A DNA stretch of 64,000 bases, from positions 62,001-126,000 of the forward strand of contig NZ_JACJQA010000028.1 of NCBI RefSeq assembly GCF_014696355.1, in the 5' to 3' direction. Positions 28,761-57,931 of the stretch are shown here, in pieces (within the stretch, counting starts at the first letter, position 1; each line of letters begins with the position of its first letter). The notes under the pieces were generated by a model, which worked only from the letters and a program-made list of their open reading frames with translations, did no database searches and was not told where the DNA came from. This stretch comes from Pseudanabaena sp. FACHB-1998. Lineage in GTDB: Bacteria; Cyanobacteriota; Cyanobacteriia; Pseudanabaenales; Pseudanabaenaceae. A program made the position numbers and the translations under genes.

Positions 28761-29085
28761 GTTCACCAAACGCTCTTTTGATTCAGAGAATGTACGTTTA
28801 AAGCATTTACTTTATTAATCTTAACATAAATGCCTTAAATAGAAATCGCTGCACCTATTATTCATCCTTATGTATGAAATTACACAGACACAGAACAATA
28901 GTGCTTTTTCTATAACCTTCATAGAATAGATCGTACCCATTTGTATGTATAAGCGATCGCCAAAACCTGAAAAAAGAGATACAACGTTATGAAGATTTAA
29001 CAAAATAAAGAACCATATTTTTGATGACGCGGCGGAGCCGCGTCATCAAAAATATGGTTCTTTATTTCACGGCATAGCCGTAAGT
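28761..29085. other. Gene-free stretch ending in a 31-bp hairpin
   Basis: 325 bp without a supported gene. A 60-codon frame on the minus strand (28821-29003) shows no family features. The main structure is the long hairpin at 29003-29067. Confidence 0.5.
29003..29067. terminator. 31-bp perfect hairpin downstream of lpxA
   Basis: 29003-29033 pairs perfectly with 29037-29067, loop GGA within GGC-GGA-GCC. It is the longest perfect stem in the window. A/T flanks lie on both sides, 19 bp past the lpxA stop. Confidence 0.88.
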
Positions 29086-40585: not shown

Positions 40586-40642
40586 TTTAAACTTATTGTA
40601 GAAAAGCGTCCCGATGGGACGCTTTTCTACAATAAGTTTAAA
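40586..40642. terminator. 27-bp perfect hairpin after cdsA
   Basis: TTTAAACTTATTGTAGAAAA... at 40586-40612 pairs perfectly with 40616-40642, loop GAT. It begins 2 bp from the cdsA stop codon and probably terminates it. Confidence 0.87.
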
Positions 40643-51253: not shown

Positions 51254-52069
51254 ATGTTCCAGCCCCAAGCAGAAATCATCGCTGATAGCGTCAATTTAGC
51301 GGGCGATCGCTTGACAACTTTTGTCTTGACCTATCACCGCATGATTCACTCAGAATTTATGACGCATCGAATGCTTAGCAAAAACAGCAGCAGCAGTCGC
51401 GCTATTCCTGTCGAAAAAATGATCAAACTTGTCGAAAGTCAGGAAGTTTATCCATTACATTGGGGCAAAAATCAAAAGGGCATGTCCGCCCAAGCGGAAG
51501 TTAGTGAAGCGGATATGCAAGCTGCATCTGAAGTCTGGCAACAAGCCAAAAACGATGCCATCCGTCATGCAAGGCGACTAGTAGAAATTGGAATTCATAA
51601 GCAGGTGGTCAATCGTTTGCTTGAACCATTTTCCACAATTACCGTAATTTGTTCAGGAACAGAGTTTCAAAACTTTTTCAATCAGCGCTGTCATCCAGAC
51701 GCGCAGCCAGAAATTCAAGCCCTCGCCAATAAAATGAAGTCTGCCTATGATAGGAGTAAGCCCCAGCAGTTAGCCAATGGAAAATGGCATTTGCCCCTAA
51801 TTAAGCAAGATGACATGGATGAAATCAGTGATATTAATGAATTAATTAAAGTTGCGGTGGGTCGCTGTGCGCGAGTTAGTTATCTCAATCATGATGGGGT
51901 CAGGAGTTTGGCGGATGATGTAAAATTGCACGATCGCCTCTTAACTTCTAAGCCTGCTCATCTCTCTCCCTTTGAGCATGTAGCGATCGCTCTTGCAGAT
52001 TCTGAAAAACGCGCCAATTTCACAGGTTTTCAGTCCTATCGTTTTGATATAGAACGAAATATTCAATAA
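51254..52069 (+). CDS. thyX: Flavin-dependent thymidylate synthase
   Basis: 271 residues. Makes dTMP from dUMP with FAD and methylene-tetrahydrofolate. The usual RHR-X7-S signature appears as THR-x7-S (THRMLSKNSSSSR, His 38, Arg 39, Ser 47), so the first Arg is Thr. NRLLEPFSTITVICSGTEFQNFFNQRCHPDAQPEIQAL and HLSPFEHVA match the family. This long variant with the degenerate first position is more phage-like than the short ThyX. ATG start; hairpin terminator follows. Confidence 0.9.
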   Translation: MFQPQAEIIADSVNLAGDRLTTFVLTYHRMIHSEFMTHRMLSKNSSSSRAIPVEKMIKLVESQEVYPLHWGKNQKGMSAQAEVSEADMQAASEVWQQAKNDAIRHARRLVEIGIHKQVVNRLLEPFSTITVICSGTEFQNFFNQRCHPDAQPEIQALANKMKSAYDRSKPQQLANGKWHLPLIKQDDMDEISDINELIKVAVGRCARVSYLNHDGVRSLADDVKLHDRLLTSKPAHLSPFEHVAIALADSEKRANFTGFQSYRFDIERNIQ

Positions 52070-52097
52070 AAAAAGCGGTGCAATGCACCGCTTTTTT
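52069..52097. terminator. Bidirectional terminator between thyX and sufD
   Basis: AAAAAAGCGGTGC pairs perfectly with GCACCGCTTTTTT, loop AAT. Convergent position. It begins on the last base of the thyX stop. Confidence 0.87.
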
Positions 52098-52106
52098 GTC
52101 AGTCAT

Positions 52107-53507
52107 TTAAGATTTGGTTTTCTCAAGTACAAAGTTACTAAGCGATCGCTGGATTGATACAATCGGAATTTGGGAAATTGCTTCCGTTGCAAAGGCATAG
52201 GTAAGCAGATTCGCCGCACTTTCAGCGTCAATCGCCCGACTTTGGAGATAGAAGATTTCTTCAGCATCCAATTGGCTAACCGTTGCACCGTGAGCACATT
52301 TGACATTATCCGCAAAAATCTCTAACTGCGGTTTAGTATCCACTCGCGCCTTACCCGATAGCAACAGATTGCGGCTTAGCTGTGCGGAATCTGTTTGTTG
52401 AGCCAGCTTCGCAACTTGAATTTTGCCATTAAAAACCGCATGGGAACGTCCATCGGCAATGCATTTATGCAGTTGCTTGCTCGATCCGTGCGGATAGTTG
52501 TGAGAGATTACAGAATGAGTATCGGCAAGCTGTTCTCCATCAAGAAAGGCTAGCCCTGTGAGCGAAGTCTCCGTTTGTGCTGCCATCTGTTGCACAATCA
52601 AGTTCTGACGCGAAATTTTTGCGCCAAAGCTAATTGATTGATTTTTATAGACGCTATTCTTGGCTTGAGCGATCGCGGTGGTATTGATATGAATTGATTC
52701 ATTGCCTTGTCTTTGCACCTTCGTATGATTGACCTGAGCGCCTTCCGCTAGCCAAACTTCTGTCACCGAATTAGTGAAATAGACTTGTTGATTCTCACCA
52801 ACAAAGGTTTGCACAAAGGTCAAATCACTGTGGGATTCAGCGATTACCAAACAACGAGGCTGGGTAATTAAAGTTGATTCTCCTAATTGGGGAGCAGAAA
52901 TAAAGATCAATTGCACAGGATTATCAACCACCAGATTTTTAGGGGCGAGAATAATGGCGACATCTTCCATACAAGCCGTGTTGAGACTCGCAAAATAATC
53001 ATTAGCATCGGGATGCTGTGCGAGGTGCGAGCGCAACTTCGGCAAAATGCGATCACCAAGGGTGGTTAGTGTACCAATAACCAAGCCTTCAGTTACATCG
53101 CTAGCATCTGATAAATCTTTGCGATACTTTCCATTGACAAATACCAGACAATTCCCTAAAGATTCTGGGGCGATATTATTGGCAATTAAGGCTTCAAGAT
53201 TAGCACTACGGGAAGCGATCGCTTGTTGATTAGCAAAAGTCAAACTCCCCAAAGCTGAAACATCAGTATATTTCCATTCTTCATCTTTTGTGGTGGGAAA
53301 AGCAAGGGTTTCTAGGCGATCGCTAGCCAATTGACGCAGTTTGCCCACAAAATCACTAGTCTCCTTGTCAGGACTAGCAATATCGGAACTTAGCTCCACA
53401 ACTTGACTTGTAAATTGTTCGCTATTTACAGCCAACTTACTGCGCGTACTTAACGCACCCTTAAATTCTGCTTGATCTTCCAATTGTTCAGAAACTTGTA
53501 TAGCCAT
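52107..53507 (-). CDS. sufD: Fe-S cluster assembly protein SufD
   Basis: 466 residues. Scaffold component of the SufBCD complex. LAFPTTKDEEWKYTDVSAL at the N-terminus and the C-terminal beta-helix with FNGKIQVAKLAQQTDSAQLSRNLLLS, DTKPQLEIFADNVKCAHGATV (Cys/His of the scaffold) and FYLQSRAIDAESA are visible. The start ATG overlaps the sufC stop by one base (TAATG), so translation is coupled. Confidence 0.96.
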   Translation of the reverse strand: MAIQVSEQLEDQAEFKGALSTRSKLAVNSEQFTSQVVELSSDIASPDKETSDFVGKLRQLASDRLETLAFPTTKDEEWKYTDVSALGSLTFANQQAIASRSANLEALIANNIAPESLGNCLVFVNGKYRKDLSDASDVTEGLVIGTLTTLGDRILPKLRSHLAQHPDANDYFASLNTACMEDVAIILAPKNLVVDNPVQLIFISAPQLGESTLITQPRCLVIAESHSDLTFVQTFVGENQQVYFTNSVTEVWLAEGAQVNHTKVQRQGNESIHINTTAIAQAKNSVYKNQSISFGAKISRQNLIVQQMAAQTETSLTGLAFLDGEQLADTHSVISHNYPHGSSKQLHKCIADGRSHAVFNGKIQVAKLAQQTDSAQLSRNLLLSGKARVDTKPQLEIFADNVKCAHGATVSQLDAEEIFYLQSRAIDAESAANLLTYAFATEAISQIPIVSIQRSLSNFVLEKTKS

Positions 53508-54289
53508 TATGCCAACACCGCCTCTTCTTCTTTGAGCCAGTCATAGCCCTTCTCTTCTAGCTCTAGCGCTAAGTCTTTATCACCAGTCAAGATGATCTTG
53601 CCATTTTCCATAACATGAATGAAGTCAGGAATAATATAATTGAGCAAGCGCTGATAGTGGGTAATTACTAGTGAAGAATTATGAGGTGTGGAAAGCTTAT
53701 TTACACCACCCGCCACAATCCGCAATGCATCAATATCTAGCCCTGAATCAGTCTCATCCAGAATCGCTAAAGTGGGGTCAAGAATTGCCATTTGCAAAAT
53801 TTCATTGCGTTTCTTTTCGCCACCCGAAAATCCTTCGTTGACACTACGACTCAAAAAGCTAGGATTCATTTCTACGATTTCCAACTTTTCTTGAATAAAG
53901 TCATCAAAATCAATAATATCTAACTCTTCTAAGCCCTTATGCTTTCGCAAATTGTTATAGGACAAACGTAAGAAATCAGAATTAGTTACCCCTGGAATTT
54001 CCAGTGGATATTGAAAAGCTAAAAATATTCCTTCTCTAGATCTAATTTCAGGTTCTAAATCTAAGAGATTTTTGCCCTTATACCAAATCTCACCACCTGT
54101 GACGGTATAGGAAGGATGTCCCGCTAATACTTTGGAGAAGGTGCTTTTACCCGAGCCATTTGGTCCCATAATCGCATGAACTTCACCAGCTTTAATTTCG
54201 AGATTTAGTCCTTTAAGAATCTCAACTCCACCAACTTCCGCAGTCAAATCCTTGACCGATAAAATCACTTCACTATTTTCAACAATCAT
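53507..54289 (-). CDS. sufC: Fe-S cluster assembly ATPase SufC
   Basis: 260 residues. ABC-type ATPase of SufBCD. Walker [13 protein letters not shown] (about 42-53), Q-loop [10 protein letters not shown], signature [16 protein letters not shown], Walker [18 protein letters not shown] and H-loop VITHYQRLL. Separated from sufB by about 1.05 kb holding three unrelated genes. Confidence 0.97.
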
Positions 54290-54357
54290 CTATGTTTCTC
54301 TTAACAGTTAACTTCAATTGTAATGCTTTTCGTTCCAGATAAATACGTTAGAACACT

Positions 54358-54591
54358 TTAATTCAAGTTATTCCACTCATCAATCGTGATTTCTCTACCT
54401 AAGATATTTTCAATTTCCTTTATCATCATTTTTAGCTGTGGAACGGAATATTCTAAATTTGAGGGGATTGTGAGCCGACATTGTTTATAAATCATAAATT
54501 GATGTCTTGTACCAGAAAATACGCCTTCAAATTCAAGTTTTTGTAGCTTTCGGATAAATTCTTTACGCTTACATGGCGCTAATCGACTCAC
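54358..54591 (-). CDS. HicA-like toxin
   Basis: 77 residues, HicA mRNA-interferase-like double-stranded-RNA-binding fold: KRKEFIRKLQKLEFEGVFSGTRHQFMIY, where the HicA catalytic His of GSHxxF is kept (RHQF), then LTIPSNLEYSVPQLKMMIKEI. It overlaps the upstream HicB gene by 23 bp, antitoxin first. Inserted within the suf gene cluster. Activity not shown. Confidence 0.82.
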   Translation of the reverse strand: MSRLAPCKRKEFIRKLQKLEFEGVFSGTRHQFMIYKQCRLTIPSNLEYSVPQLKMMIKEIENILGREITIDEWNNLN

Positions 54592-54841
54592 TTTTTAGCT
54601 CCTGATTTAGATCAATCCCACTAATGATCGGTAAATGATGACCTAGCTTTAAACCTAAAAATAACCAGTCTTCAAATACAGATTGCACTTCATATTCGCA
54701 TTCTCGTAAGGTTTCGCCAAAAGCAATTACACCATGACAATTTGGAATACGTCCAACAAACGAGTTATCCTCTAGCTTATCGTATGTTGCTTGTCTGAGA
54801 GCTTGCTCTACATAATCACTAAGAATAAATTTAACCGCCAT
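54569..54841 (-). CDS. HicB-like antitoxin
   Basis: 90 residues from ATG 54841 (an in-frame GTG lies at 54850). HicB-type pseudo-RNase H fold: VKFILSDYVEQALRQATYDK, FVGRIPNCHGVIAFGETLRECEYEVQSVFEDWLFLGLKLGHHLPII. No obvious DNA-binding tail, as in the short cyanobacterial HicB proteins. Translationally coupled to the HicA gene. Confidence 0.82.
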   Translation of the reverse strand: MAVKFILSDYVEQALRQATYDKLEDNSFVGRIPNCHGVIAFGETLRECEYEVQSVFEDWLFLGLKLGHHLPIISGIDLNQELKSESISAM

Positions 54842-54864
54842 ATCAAACACCTGTATATTCTCGT

Positions 54865-55290
54865 TTAAATTGTTGTTAATAAATGCATAGCGCGTTTCAA
54901 GATCTCCGATTGATTCACCATTTTACCAAGGGCGATCGCATCATAAGCACCGCCAAAAGTTTCTAGTCGAGCATTGTCTAAAGCGCGATCATATGCTTCT
55001 TCGAGAATTTCTTGCAATTCGCGATCACTTAAATAATTACCGCCAGCCTTCCGTCGTTTGTTTGTGCGTTGGATTGAGAATATAGAATTACGGATTGATA
55101 CATCCCAAGAACTGGTAGAACGCTTTTCAGCAGACTGCTTGATAAGATGTAGTAAAAGAATCACAGCATAACTTTGGATTTTATTAATCTTGTCGTCTTT
55201 GCTCATCTCTTCTAGCTCATCGATCAGCATCAGAGCAGATTGGGTATCTCCTCTCTGAATTAGCGATCGCAGTTCTATGAGTTCTTCCAT
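54865..55290 (-). CDS. DUF29-like protein
   Basis: 141 residues from ATG 55290 (a GTG at 55305 overlaps the sufB terminator). Resembles cyanobacterial DUF29: IDELEEMSKDDKINKIQSYAVILLLHLIKQ, SWDVSIRNSIFSIQ, LSDRELQEILEEAYDRALDNARLET. The usual N-terminal LYEEDFYLW segment is missing, so it is a short or divergent member. Function unknown. Lies 24 bp upstream of the HicB-like gene and likely arrived with it. Confidence 0.65.
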   Translation of the reverse strand: MEELIELRSLIQRGDTQSALMLIDELEEMSKDDKINKIQSYAVILLLHLIKQSAEKRSTSSWDVSIRNSIFSIQRTNKRRKAGGNYLSDRELQEILEEAYDRALDNARLETFGGAYDAIALGKMVNQSEILKRAMHLLTTI

Positions 55291-55305
55291 AATTCTGTAA
55301 TTCAC

Positions 55306-55339
55306 AAATAGAGTTGACGCAAAGCGTCAACTCTATTTT
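55306..55339. terminator. 14-bp hairpin after sufB
   Basis: AAATAGAGTTGACG pairs perfectly with CGTCAACTCTATTT around CAAAGC. The right arm overlaps two bases of the sufB stop. If it terminates, it would cut sufB off from sufC/D. Confidence 0.85.
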
Positions 55340-56774
55340 AACCCACACTATTCTCTAACTTCAAAGCCAAGAGCTTGTCTGCTTCAACTGCAAATTCCAT
55401 CGGCAAAGCGTTGAATACTTCCTTACAGAAGCCGCTAATAATCATTGAAACCGCATCTTCTACAGCGATACCGCGTTGTTGGAAATAGAAGAGTTGTTCT
55501 TCGCCAATCTTAGAAGTTGAGGCTTCATGCTCAACCCTTGCCGTATTATTTTGGACTTGGATATAGGGGAAAGTATTCGCCTGTGAGCAATCACCGATTA
55601 GCATTGAGTCGCATTGAGAATAATTTCTTGCGCCTTCTGCTTTTGGTGAAATCTTCACTAAGCCGCGATAGCTATTTTGGGAACCACCAGCGGAAATACC
55701 CTTAGAAACGATCTTGCTGCGGGTGTTTTTGCCGATATGCACCATTTTTGAGCCTGTATCAGCCTGTTGCTTGTTGTTAGTCAAAGCAACCGAGTAAAAC
55801 TCACCAACGGAATTTTCACCGACTAATACACAACTAGGATATTTCCAAGTAATTGCCGAACCAGTTTCTACTTGCGTCCAAGAGATTTTCGAGTTTTTGC
55901 CTTGGCATAAACCACGCTTAGTTACAAAGTTATAAATACCGCCTTTGCCATTCTTATCGCCAGCGTACCAGTTCTGCACAGTGGAATATTTTACTTCCGC
56001 GTCATCGAGGGTGACGATTTCGACAACTGCGGCGTGAAGTTGATTAGTATCAAACATCGGCGCAGTACAGCCTTCAAGATAGCTAACATAAGCTCCTTCT
56101 TCGGCAACGATCAGGGTGCGCTCAAACTGTCCAGAGTCACCATTGTTAATGCGGAAATAGGTGGACAAATCCATTGGACATTTCACGCCTTTGGGGATGT
56201 AGACGAAGGAACCATCGCTAAATACGGCGGCGTTTAGTGCTGAGAAGTAGTTGTCAGCGATCGGGACAACGCTACCCAAATATTTTTTGATTAGTTCGGG
56301 ATACTCATGCATCGCTTCCGAGATCGAGCAGAAAATTACGCCGACTTTGGCTAAATCTTTTTTAAAGGTAGTGGCGACAGAAACGCTGTCAAAAATTGCG
56401 TCAACGGCAACATTAGCGAGACGTTTTTGTTCATTTAGAGAAATACCTAACTTCTCGAAGGTGTCCAGCAATTCGGGATCGACCTCATCGAGGCTTGCTT
56501 TTTTCTTGGACTGCTTAGGTGCAGAATAGTAAACGATATCTTGATAATTGATCGCAGGATAATCCACATGCGCCCAAGTCGGTTCTTGCATCTTTAACCA
56601 TTGTCGATACGCTTTGAGACGAAATTCCAGCATGTATTCTGGCTCATTTTTCTTAGCCGAAATCATGCGGACGACATCTTCGCTAAGCCCGCGAGGAATC
56701 GTGTCCGACTCAATGGACGTAACAAATCCGTATTTGTATGGTTGGTTGACAAGTGCTTGAACCGTTGCAGTCAT
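55338..56774 (-). CDS. sufB: Fe-S cluster assembly protein SufB
   Basis: 478 residues. Core scaffold of SufBCD. Typical segments: [31 protein letters not shown] at the N-terminus, [77 protein letters not shown] and [22 protein letters not shown]. The start faces sufR across 285 bp containing SufR-type operators. Confidence 0.97.
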
Positions 56775-56860: not shown

Positions 56861-56885
56861 CTTTACTCATTGTACGGTACATTAG

Positions 56886-56899
56886 CAACATACAAGTTG
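56886..56899. promoter_or_regulatory. Perfect SufR operator CAAC-N6-GTTG
   Basis: CAACATACAAGTTG lies between the divergent sufB and sufR genes. The CAAC-N6-GTTG motif is the site described for cyanobacterial SufR, which represses sufBCDS and itself. Two sites 39 bp apart fit dimer binding at both promoters. Confidence 0.8.
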
Positions 56900-56958: not shown

Positions 56959-57019
56959 AAGCAAAACCCAAGAGAAAATTGCGATGCGAAGCATCGCAAT
57001 TTTCTCTTGGGTTTTGCTT
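56959..57019. repeat. 29-bp perfect hairpin in the sufR leader
   Basis: AAGCAAAACCCAAGAGAAAA... at 56959-56987 pairs perfectly with 56991-57019, loop GAA in ATGC-GAA-GCAT. It ends 40 bp before the sufR ATG, downstream of the operators, so it may form in the sufR mRNA leader. Confidence 0.87.
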
Positions 57020-57059: not shown

Positions 57060-57802
57060 ATGAAAACTCCCATCGGCGTTGCTGAGATGATTACGCCAAA
57101 CTTAAAGCTAGATCCTGAAGATCATCAGTTAGACAAAAGCGTAGATAAAAGCGATGCCAAGCCTGAAACTAAACATGACACTAAGCAAGATATTTTGCAG
57201 CATTTGCTAAAGCGCGGCGAAGTGACCGCCCAAGATTTGGCAGATCGGCTAGATATTAGTCCCCAAGCAATTCGGAAGCATTTAAAAGATTTAGAAGCTG
57301 AGGGGCTGATTTACCACACTGCTGAGCAAATGGGCATGGGTCGTCCTCAATTTATTTATGCTCTAACGGTGGCGGGACGCGATCGCTTTCCTGATAGTTA
57401 TAATCAATTTGCCGTAAATTTCTTAGATACGCTGATCGATACCTTAGGCAAAGAGCAAGTATCTGAGGTGTTGCAAAAGCAATGGCAACGCAAAGCCCAA
57501 AATTATAAATCGCAACTTGGAAGAGGTTCGCTAAAACAAAGACTAGAGAAATTAGCTGAGCTCCGCCGTTCCGAAGGTTATGTAACGGAATGGTTTCCTG
57601 TAGAAGGAAAAAATCAAAGCTTTATTTTTACAGAATATAATTGCGCGATCGCCCATGTGGCGGAATCTTTTCCTAGTGTTTGTGGGCATGAATTAGAAAT
57701 GTTTGCGACGGTACTAGATTGTCCAGTGGAGCGAACTCACTGGATGGTTGATGGCGAACATCGTTGTGGATATTTAATTCGAGAGCAAGGTGTTAGCTGT
57801 TA
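57060..57802 (+). CDS. sufR: Fe-S-responsive repressor SufR
   Basis: 247 residues from ATG 57060, preceded by AGGAG at 8 nt; a longer frame from 56979 runs through the leader hairpin and is rejected. DeoR/ArsR-like winged helix at about 40-100: RGEVTAQDLADRLDISPQAIRKHLKDLEAEGLI. C-terminal Cys residues CAIAHVAESFPSVCGHE...LDCPVE...HRCGYLI are the cluster ligands expected in SufR. Represses the suf operon when its 4Fe-4S cluster is present; regulation is probably autogenous through the sites at 56847-56899. Confidence 0.93.
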
Positions 57803-57931
57803 GCGGATAACTTCACAAATAGAGATGATTTCGATTAGCATAGATATTAGTAGTTATGGTTTACAGAGAATGTGACATTTTGCGTCATATTCTTTAACCC
57901 TAGTAGTTTTGAGATAAATCAAGGAAAAAAT

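Follow-up and report, generated by a model that had tools for sequence, protein, structure and literature searches.

An Eroding Accessory Island With a Predicted HicBA Pair Appears to Lie Between sufB and sufC in Pseudanabaena

Introduction

The closest described counterpart of the locus treated here is the sufR-sufBCDS cluster of Synechocystis PCC 6803. According to the available portions of two papers, it has a divergent sufR, a SufR operator before sufB and the gene order sufB, sufC, sufD, all of which are shared by the Pseudanabaena locus (PMC7058544; PMC13421787). The SufR motif is given as CAAC-N6-GTTG (PMC13421787, in its available part). The second point of reference is the class 2 hicBA operon. 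In the part available of "Diverse genetic contexts of HicA toxin domains" (mBio 2024, PMC10865869), classes 1 and 2 are described as untested and the regulation of class 2 hicBA operons is posed as a question, and a review, in its accessible text, mentions the testing of one HicAB pair, from Anabaena PCC 7120 (PMC11594946). No literature on genes between sufB and sufC was found, judged by titles and abstract openings. Here, we describe the sufB-sufC gap of Pseudanabaena sp. FACHB-1998 and compare it within the genus and with other cyanobacteria.

Layout of the Locus in Pseudanabaena sp. FACHB-1998

The window, the whole stretch of DNA that was analyzed, comprises 64,000 nt of contig NZ_JACJQA010000028.1 (positions 62,001 to 126,000). 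Open reading frames and profile matches give the minus-strand order sufB, DUF29, hicB, hicA, sufC, sufD, with sufR divergent from sufB; all genes from sufB to sufD are co-directional and separated by short intergenic spaces. A first-pass annotation from the letters alone had placed a HicBA pair and a DUF29-like gene on the same strand within about 1.05 kb between sufB and sufC, with a hairpin behind sufB. Both statements hold: sufB and sufC are not directly contiguous, the spacing being 1,051 nt with three genes inside, and the stop codon of sufB opens a 15-bp hairpin. The features are as follows.

52069..52097, no strand assigned, palindrome 3' of sufD, probable terminator for sufCD and the convergent gene (palindrome survey)
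52107..53507, minus, sufD, TAATG junction with sufC (TIGR01981, 1.2e-79)
53507..54289, minus, sufC (TIGR01978, 2.3e-106)
54317..54322, minus, TACAAT, candidate -10 box of an internal sufCD promoter (kept in relatives)
54358..54591, minus, hicA, predicted toxin, GTG start, His30 of active-site type (open reading frame, alignment, model)
54569..54850, minus, hicB, predicted small antitoxin with the UPF0150 domain only (PF21748, 5.5e-26)
54865..55290, minus, DUF29a gene (PF01724, 1.2e-9)
55306..55338, minus, 15-bp hairpin beginning at the sufB stop, probable (bidirectional) terminator of sufB (fold, covariation)
55338..56774, minus, sufB (NF008773, 1.2e-272; TIGR01980)
56869..56874, minus, TACAAT, candidate -10 box of sufB (TACAAT upstream of sufB in 21/24 genus genomes)
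56886..56899, minus, putative SufR operator CAAC-N6-GTTG upstream of sufB (fixed place in relatives)
57081..57803, plus, sufR, SufR repressor, putative start, frame open from 56979 (TIGR02702, 4.7e-93)

The sufB, sufC, sufD and SufR assignments are matches to NCBIfam equivalogs, and no NCBIfam cut-off is reached by DUF29, HicB or HicA. sufS is not adjacent to sufD; its single above-cut-off match lies on contig 15 of the assembly. Within the window, no known RNA family was found at gathering scores.

The HicBA Pair and the DUF29 Gene

The hicB gene precedes hicA and overlaps it by 23 nt. The HicB protein is small, with UPF0150 as its sole Pfam match at E 1 and no DNA-binding domain recognized at that threshold, and it matches a solved structure, 2dsy (Thermus TTHA0281), at 7e-11. 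By gene order and size, the pair is predicted to be a class 2 hicBA. The window HicA scores 15.5 bits against PF07927 (E 0.018), below the curated 27, and the family also matches all but one of the 18 HicA proteins in an alignment (17 at E 0.05 or better), the best reaching 5e-11. This alignment was drawn from 30 loci fetched with hicB, after omission of near-identical copies, a truncated copy (genome G009), shortened copies and seven loci in which no complete hicA adjoins hicB; His30 is invariant in all 18. The AF2 model of HicA (pLDDT 91.7) has the order alpha-beta-beta-beta-alpha. A Foldseek comparison with the PDB ranks 1whz first and also returns the HicAB-complex chains 6hpb, 6g26 and 5yrz, all at E 0.12 or worse. 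Sequence and model together point to a dsRBD-like fold with a catalytic-type histidine.

Both genes are under purifying selection, omega being 0.02-0.13 in 15 hicB pairs and 0-0.09 in 10 hicA pairs (the truncated G009 copy excluded); the hicA of G009 is cut short by a stop at codon 58, next to an intact hicB. The pair is predicted to act as toxin and antitoxin in the cell. This type of hicB occurs in six of the 26 genus genomes, the present one included, always in the sufB-sufC gap. A plasmid source for hicB was considered and discarded, the two plasmid records matched being both below 60% identity.

The DUF29a start at ATG 55290 is common to the orthologues, with an in-frame GTG at 55305. The protein matches PF01724 with 39 bits, above the gathering score of 22.5, and DUF29a is likewise under purifying selection (omega 0.03-0.20; 36 pairs from nine genomes, leaving aside G012, in which DUF29a holds Ns, and G005, G010 and G013). 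Its structure model is nearly all-helical and had no PDB match at E 0.001 or better. A role as HEPN toxin was rejected, since the name DUF29 is absent from the HEPN paper and the other literature examined and the fold search was empty.

The sufB-sufC Gap Across Pseudanabaena

Of the 26 genomes in the genus sample (own included), 24 yielded sufC and 25 yielded sufB. The two genes are linked in 18, with gaps of 346-4,914 nt that differ in content. In six genomes, sufB lies apart from sufCD or on another contig: the genes are about 80 and about 850 kb apart on one contig in G023 and G024, and on separate contigs with at least 3 kb of other DNA around them in G001, G010 and G025; in G006, linkage is limited by a contig end. 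G005, an incomplete assembly, has no sufC match. Two other joints served as controls: sufC-sufD is TAATG in 24/24 genomes, and sufR adjoins sufB in all 24 loci with a full sufB; the variability of the gap is therefore set against these joints and not against the genome average.

The gap cargo includes DUF29a, DUF29b, hicBA, a reverse-strand PD-(D/E)XK gene, Uma2 and a papain-fold toxin 2, as well as DUF433, a DDE transposase and an AAA plus DUF4276 pair resembling defense ATPase-TOPRIM pairs. This last pair, on the reverse strand in G017 (locus L050), recalls the PADLOC systems AbiLi, AriA and HEC-01. The family scans of gap proteins covered ten proteins, plus G016_1 and three outgroup gap proteins. 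Reverse-strand open reading frames of at least 200 aa lie in the gaps of seven genomes (G002, G003, G012, G017, G020, G021, G022).

At least two of DUF29a, DUF29b, hicBA and PD-(D/E)XK are kept in 12 genomes (G000, the window genome, with G003, G005, G008, G011, G012, G014, G017 and G019-G022; remnants of at least 79 nt counted), and always in a single order, that of G003; admitting remnants of about 20 nt brings in G004, G009 and G018 as well. The full order is DUF29a, DUF29b, hicBA and then the reverse-strand PD-(D/E)XK gene next to sufC. Most of these parts are missing from many gaps; hicB is absent from 12 of the 18 linked ones, and the exact DUF29a-hicBA content is found, among these 18, in the window genome alone; G014 carries this cassette with DUF29b in addition. 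Partial losses are visible as well. In G013, with the shortest gap (346 nt), DUF29a is left as two pieces; about 20 nt of DUF29b remain before hicB in G009, G018 and the window genome; and the ends of the PD-(D/E)XK gene remain before sufC in G007 and G016. Among the unlinked genomes, G010 has an island remnant behind sufB, and G023/G025 carry DUF29a remnants behind sufB and PD-(D/E)XK remnants before sufC, so that in the lineage of G023/G025 the break would have fallen inside the island. From these comparisons, the cassette in the window looks like the remainder of an old, eroding and larger accessory island and not like a lone recent insertion, and the sufB-sufC gap in Pseudanabaena is, as judged from the genus sample, a long-lived slot for small accessory genes.

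A recent insertion of a mobile HicBA pair into a contiguous sufBCD would account for the presence of this hicB in just six of 26 genomes and for the low divergence between the G003 and G014 copies. Toxin-antitoxin pairs move. Against such an event, distant species share site and order, the DUF29b piece before hicB recurs in three genomes, no plasmid record exceeds 60% identity, and the family scan of ten gap proteins turned up a transposase in a single gap (G020). Divergence at fourfold sites points the same way: 62 of 82 pairs show no difference between island genes and sufBC (nominal p 0.05), deep pairs resemble sufBC, and hicBA of the window genome and G018 differ by 0.39 versus 0.42 for sufBC. 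We consider a recent insertion extremely improbable, and its transposon-borne form was rejected on island order, remnants and divergence. The word "inserted" used by the first-pass annotation thus misleads, since the cassette appears to be what is left of an older island; the refuting condition it named, an arrangement universal in the clade, does not hold. In the remaining 20 of the 82 pairs, the island genes diverge less than sufBC (nominal p 0.05). Two of these survive correction, hicBA of G003-G014 (2/52 vs 94/312) and PD-(D/E)XK of G012-G022 (7/73 vs 118/289), and such pairs suggest exchange within the genus in addition to descent. The deep nodes of the sufBC tree (support 33-54) are too weak for a count of gains and losses. 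A stabilizing effect of embedding in an essential operon, proposed from the window alone, finds no support in a hicB so often lacking or in the stop within hicA of G009.

Transcription Signals Around sufB and sufC

Of 24 genus genomes, 23 carry an exact copy of the putative SufR operator before sufB, and G024 carries one with a single mismatch. Taken by itself, the window shows no excess of the pattern over chance (2 occurrences vs a mean of 0.72 in shuffles), so the evidence for the operator is its fixed position in relatives. Within 200 nt before sufC, no such operator was found in any of 24 genomes, even allowing one mismatch, and SufR control of sufCD from a site near sufC was ruled out on this absence.

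An internal promoter for sufCD, one of several possibilities raised by the first-pass annotation, is favored by the comparison. TACAAT stands 24-27 nt before the sufC ATG in 24/24 genomes, including the six without a linked sufB, and this near-fixed box is the candidate promoter of sufCD. The sequences were aligned on the box, which forces an identity of 1.00 on the box itself. Downstream, the first 18 nt have a mean pairwise identity of 0.72; upstream, the value falls to 0.55 over the adjacent 8 nt and to 0.31-0.38 over the stretch 9-60 nt away, where the DNA can no longer be aligned. The block after the box includes the ribosome-binding leader, which is conserved regardless. There is no clear -35 box before sufC, and a promoter scan gave no excess (7 sites vs 8.9 in shuffles).

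The hairpin at the sufB stop has, as RNA, a folding energy of -21.6 kcal/mol (z -6.0). Over eight genomes, 97.5% of cells are paired and three pairs show two-sided changes, a covariation equaled by 1 of 500 shuffles. These features suggest that the hairpin terminates sufB transcription. A stem of at least 12 bp within 120 nt of the sufB stop is present in 12 of the 24 assessable genomes. Ten stretches behind sufB were folded: in seven, the structure exceeds that of shuffles (z -3.0 or lower), and the stretches from G001, G009 and G021 gave nothing significant. Termination behind sufB would therefore not be universal in the genus. Membership of the hairpin in a repeat family was also considered and dropped, its 25-nt core (up to three mismatches) occurring at one place in its own genome.

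If the window held a single sufBCD operon with passengers, SufR-controlled transcription would pass the hairpin, yield joint expression of DUF29, hicBA and sufCD, and tie the toxin-antitoxin pair to Fe-S stress. The co-directional genes and small spaces agree with this, as does the need for some other control of a class 2 HicB that has no recognized DNA-binding domain, and half of the assessable genomes have no long stem behind sufB. The compensatory changes in the hairpin argue against it, however, as do the TACAAT box conserved before sufC, the long reverse-strand frames in seven gaps and the six genomes in which sufC lies apart from sufB or on another contig. On balance, we find a single operon unlikely. 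A hypothetical coupling of the toxin to Fe-S stress through SufR, another suggestion of the first-pass annotation, would need read-through, given an operator only before sufB and a hairpin before the cassette.

Palindromes are frequent in the window. Perfect ones with arms of at least 14 bp number 21, versus none in three first-order Markov controls; seven lie in convergent gaps, ten in co-directional and three in divergent ones, with one unclassified, and none of the 21 falls inside an open reading frame of at least 75 aa. The three in divergent gaps, of the 20 classified, count against a terminator role. The palindromes, for example those at 29003-29067, 40586-40642 and 56959-57019, combine arms of 14-31 bp with a loop of 1 or 3 nt, and a GC-NNN-GC core is common among them. 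The loop of the sufB hairpin is TTT, AAA, TTC or GAA depending on the species, as if flipped. Both sufR and sufB have the palindrome at 56959-57019 (29-bp arms) on their 5' side, where a terminator would be unexpected; a similar element was seen by eye in G002, G011, G020 and G021 and is absent from the other upstream sequences shown.

The sufB-sufC Joint in Other Cyanobacteria

Among the genomes listed outside the family in which both places were found (n = 106, a biased subset, with G043 and G054 omitted), sufB and sufC are linked in 92 and far apart or on separate contigs in 14. The claim that cyanobacterial sufBCD genes are normally contiguous calls for qualification: the median gap in the 92 is 160 nt, with 70 below 600 nt, but 22 gaps measure at least 600 nt, in addition to the 14 unlinked cases. 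The contents of 18 of these 22 large gaps were compared (G107, G109, G260 and G262 not included). A 206-aa PD-(D/E)XK-like family, on the sufB strand, is present in 13, in six of them accompanied by an aspartyl-protease-like gene; Uma2 occurs in three, and an MscL-like gene in two, plus other unrelated genes noted by eye. The 206-aa gene recurs in several cyanobacterial families (loci L191, L192, L195-L197, L201-L203 and others). The window hicA, hicB and DUF29 have no match in the 18 gaps, and among 80 named loci they match in Pseudanabaena only. As far as these comparisons reach, the joint is thus widely tolerant of accessory genes, with the hicBA form seen only in Pseudanabaena. A separate observation concerns SufB of a sister genus (G033, L070:1940-3007; also G026, by a split match), which has a 356-aa in-frame insert; LAGLIDADG matches it above cut-off, Hint/intein profiles reach but do not exceed their cut-offs, and the insert is probably an intein.

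The recurrence of the 206-aa family, the aspartyl-protease-like gene and Uma2 could mean that the gap is selected in cyanobacteria for accessory or defense-type genes profiting from steady suf expression, and the reverse-strand PD-(D/E)XK gene of Pseudanabaena is distantly similar to the 206-aa family (BLASTP E 0.001). Yet the gap stays below 600 nt in most of the linked outside genomes listed, many Pseudanabaena gaps lack most island parts, the MscL-like and other genes are unrelated, and the name PD-(D/E)XK rests for the 206-aa family on a weak profile match (PADLOC E 0.005, no Pfam match). Selection for such recurrent use appears doubtful to us.

Interpretation and Comparison With Known Systems

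We regard it as probable, from comparative sequence evidence, that the cassette is an old-island remnant in a near-neutral slot, flanked by sufB under SufR control on one side and by sufCD with its own promoter on the other. sufB would form one unit under SufR, closed in the window by the hairpin terminator, and sufCD a second one, transcribed from a promoter immediately upstream of sufC. Since each flanking unit would carry its own signals, the intervening DNA could be gained, swapped, lost or left to decay with little penalty, and in at least one lineage sufB would have been parted from sufCD by a rearrangement within the gap. HicBA would be a working pair of class 2 type, passed on by descent, exchanged to some extent among members of the genus and frequently lost. 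The classic suf operon thus seems to be coming apart, with sufC having its own promoter. An elaboration that we hold to be quite improbable takes HicBA as having neither its own promoter nor a DNA-binding antitoxin: sufB alone would answer to SufR, HicBA would depend entirely on transcription reading past the sufB terminator, and Fe-S status would set the supply of a growth-arresting RNase. If true, the SufBC2D scaffold would be under split control, with sufCD driven apart from a SufR-responsive sufB.

In "The life-cycle of operons" (Price 2006), operons reportedly take up inserted genes and are later broken by rearrangement. Compared with that account, Pseudanabaena has gapped and broken states coexisting in one genus, and in one lineage island remnants are left on either side of the break. 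A nearly closed gap, an island, eroded islands and full separation are all found here in an essential pathway with a known repressor, and because these states coexist, the order of operon break-up (own promoter first, break later) becomes testable. The two-unit reading further predicts unequal regulation of subunits within one complex.

Relative to the class 2 HicBA operons in the accessible part of PMC10865869, the window pair encodes a predicted toxin below the Pfam cut-off and sits between sufB and sufC. The locus thereby offers a natural setting for pairs whose HicB lacks a DNA-binding domain, a control question posed in that part of the paper. Unlike Synechocystis PCC 6803, as described in the available text of PMC7058544 and PMC13421787, the window has an island between sufB and sufC, no SufR operator at sufC and a candidate -10 box before sufC, and, unlike in the sufBCDS cluster, the sufS gene of this genome lies on another contig.
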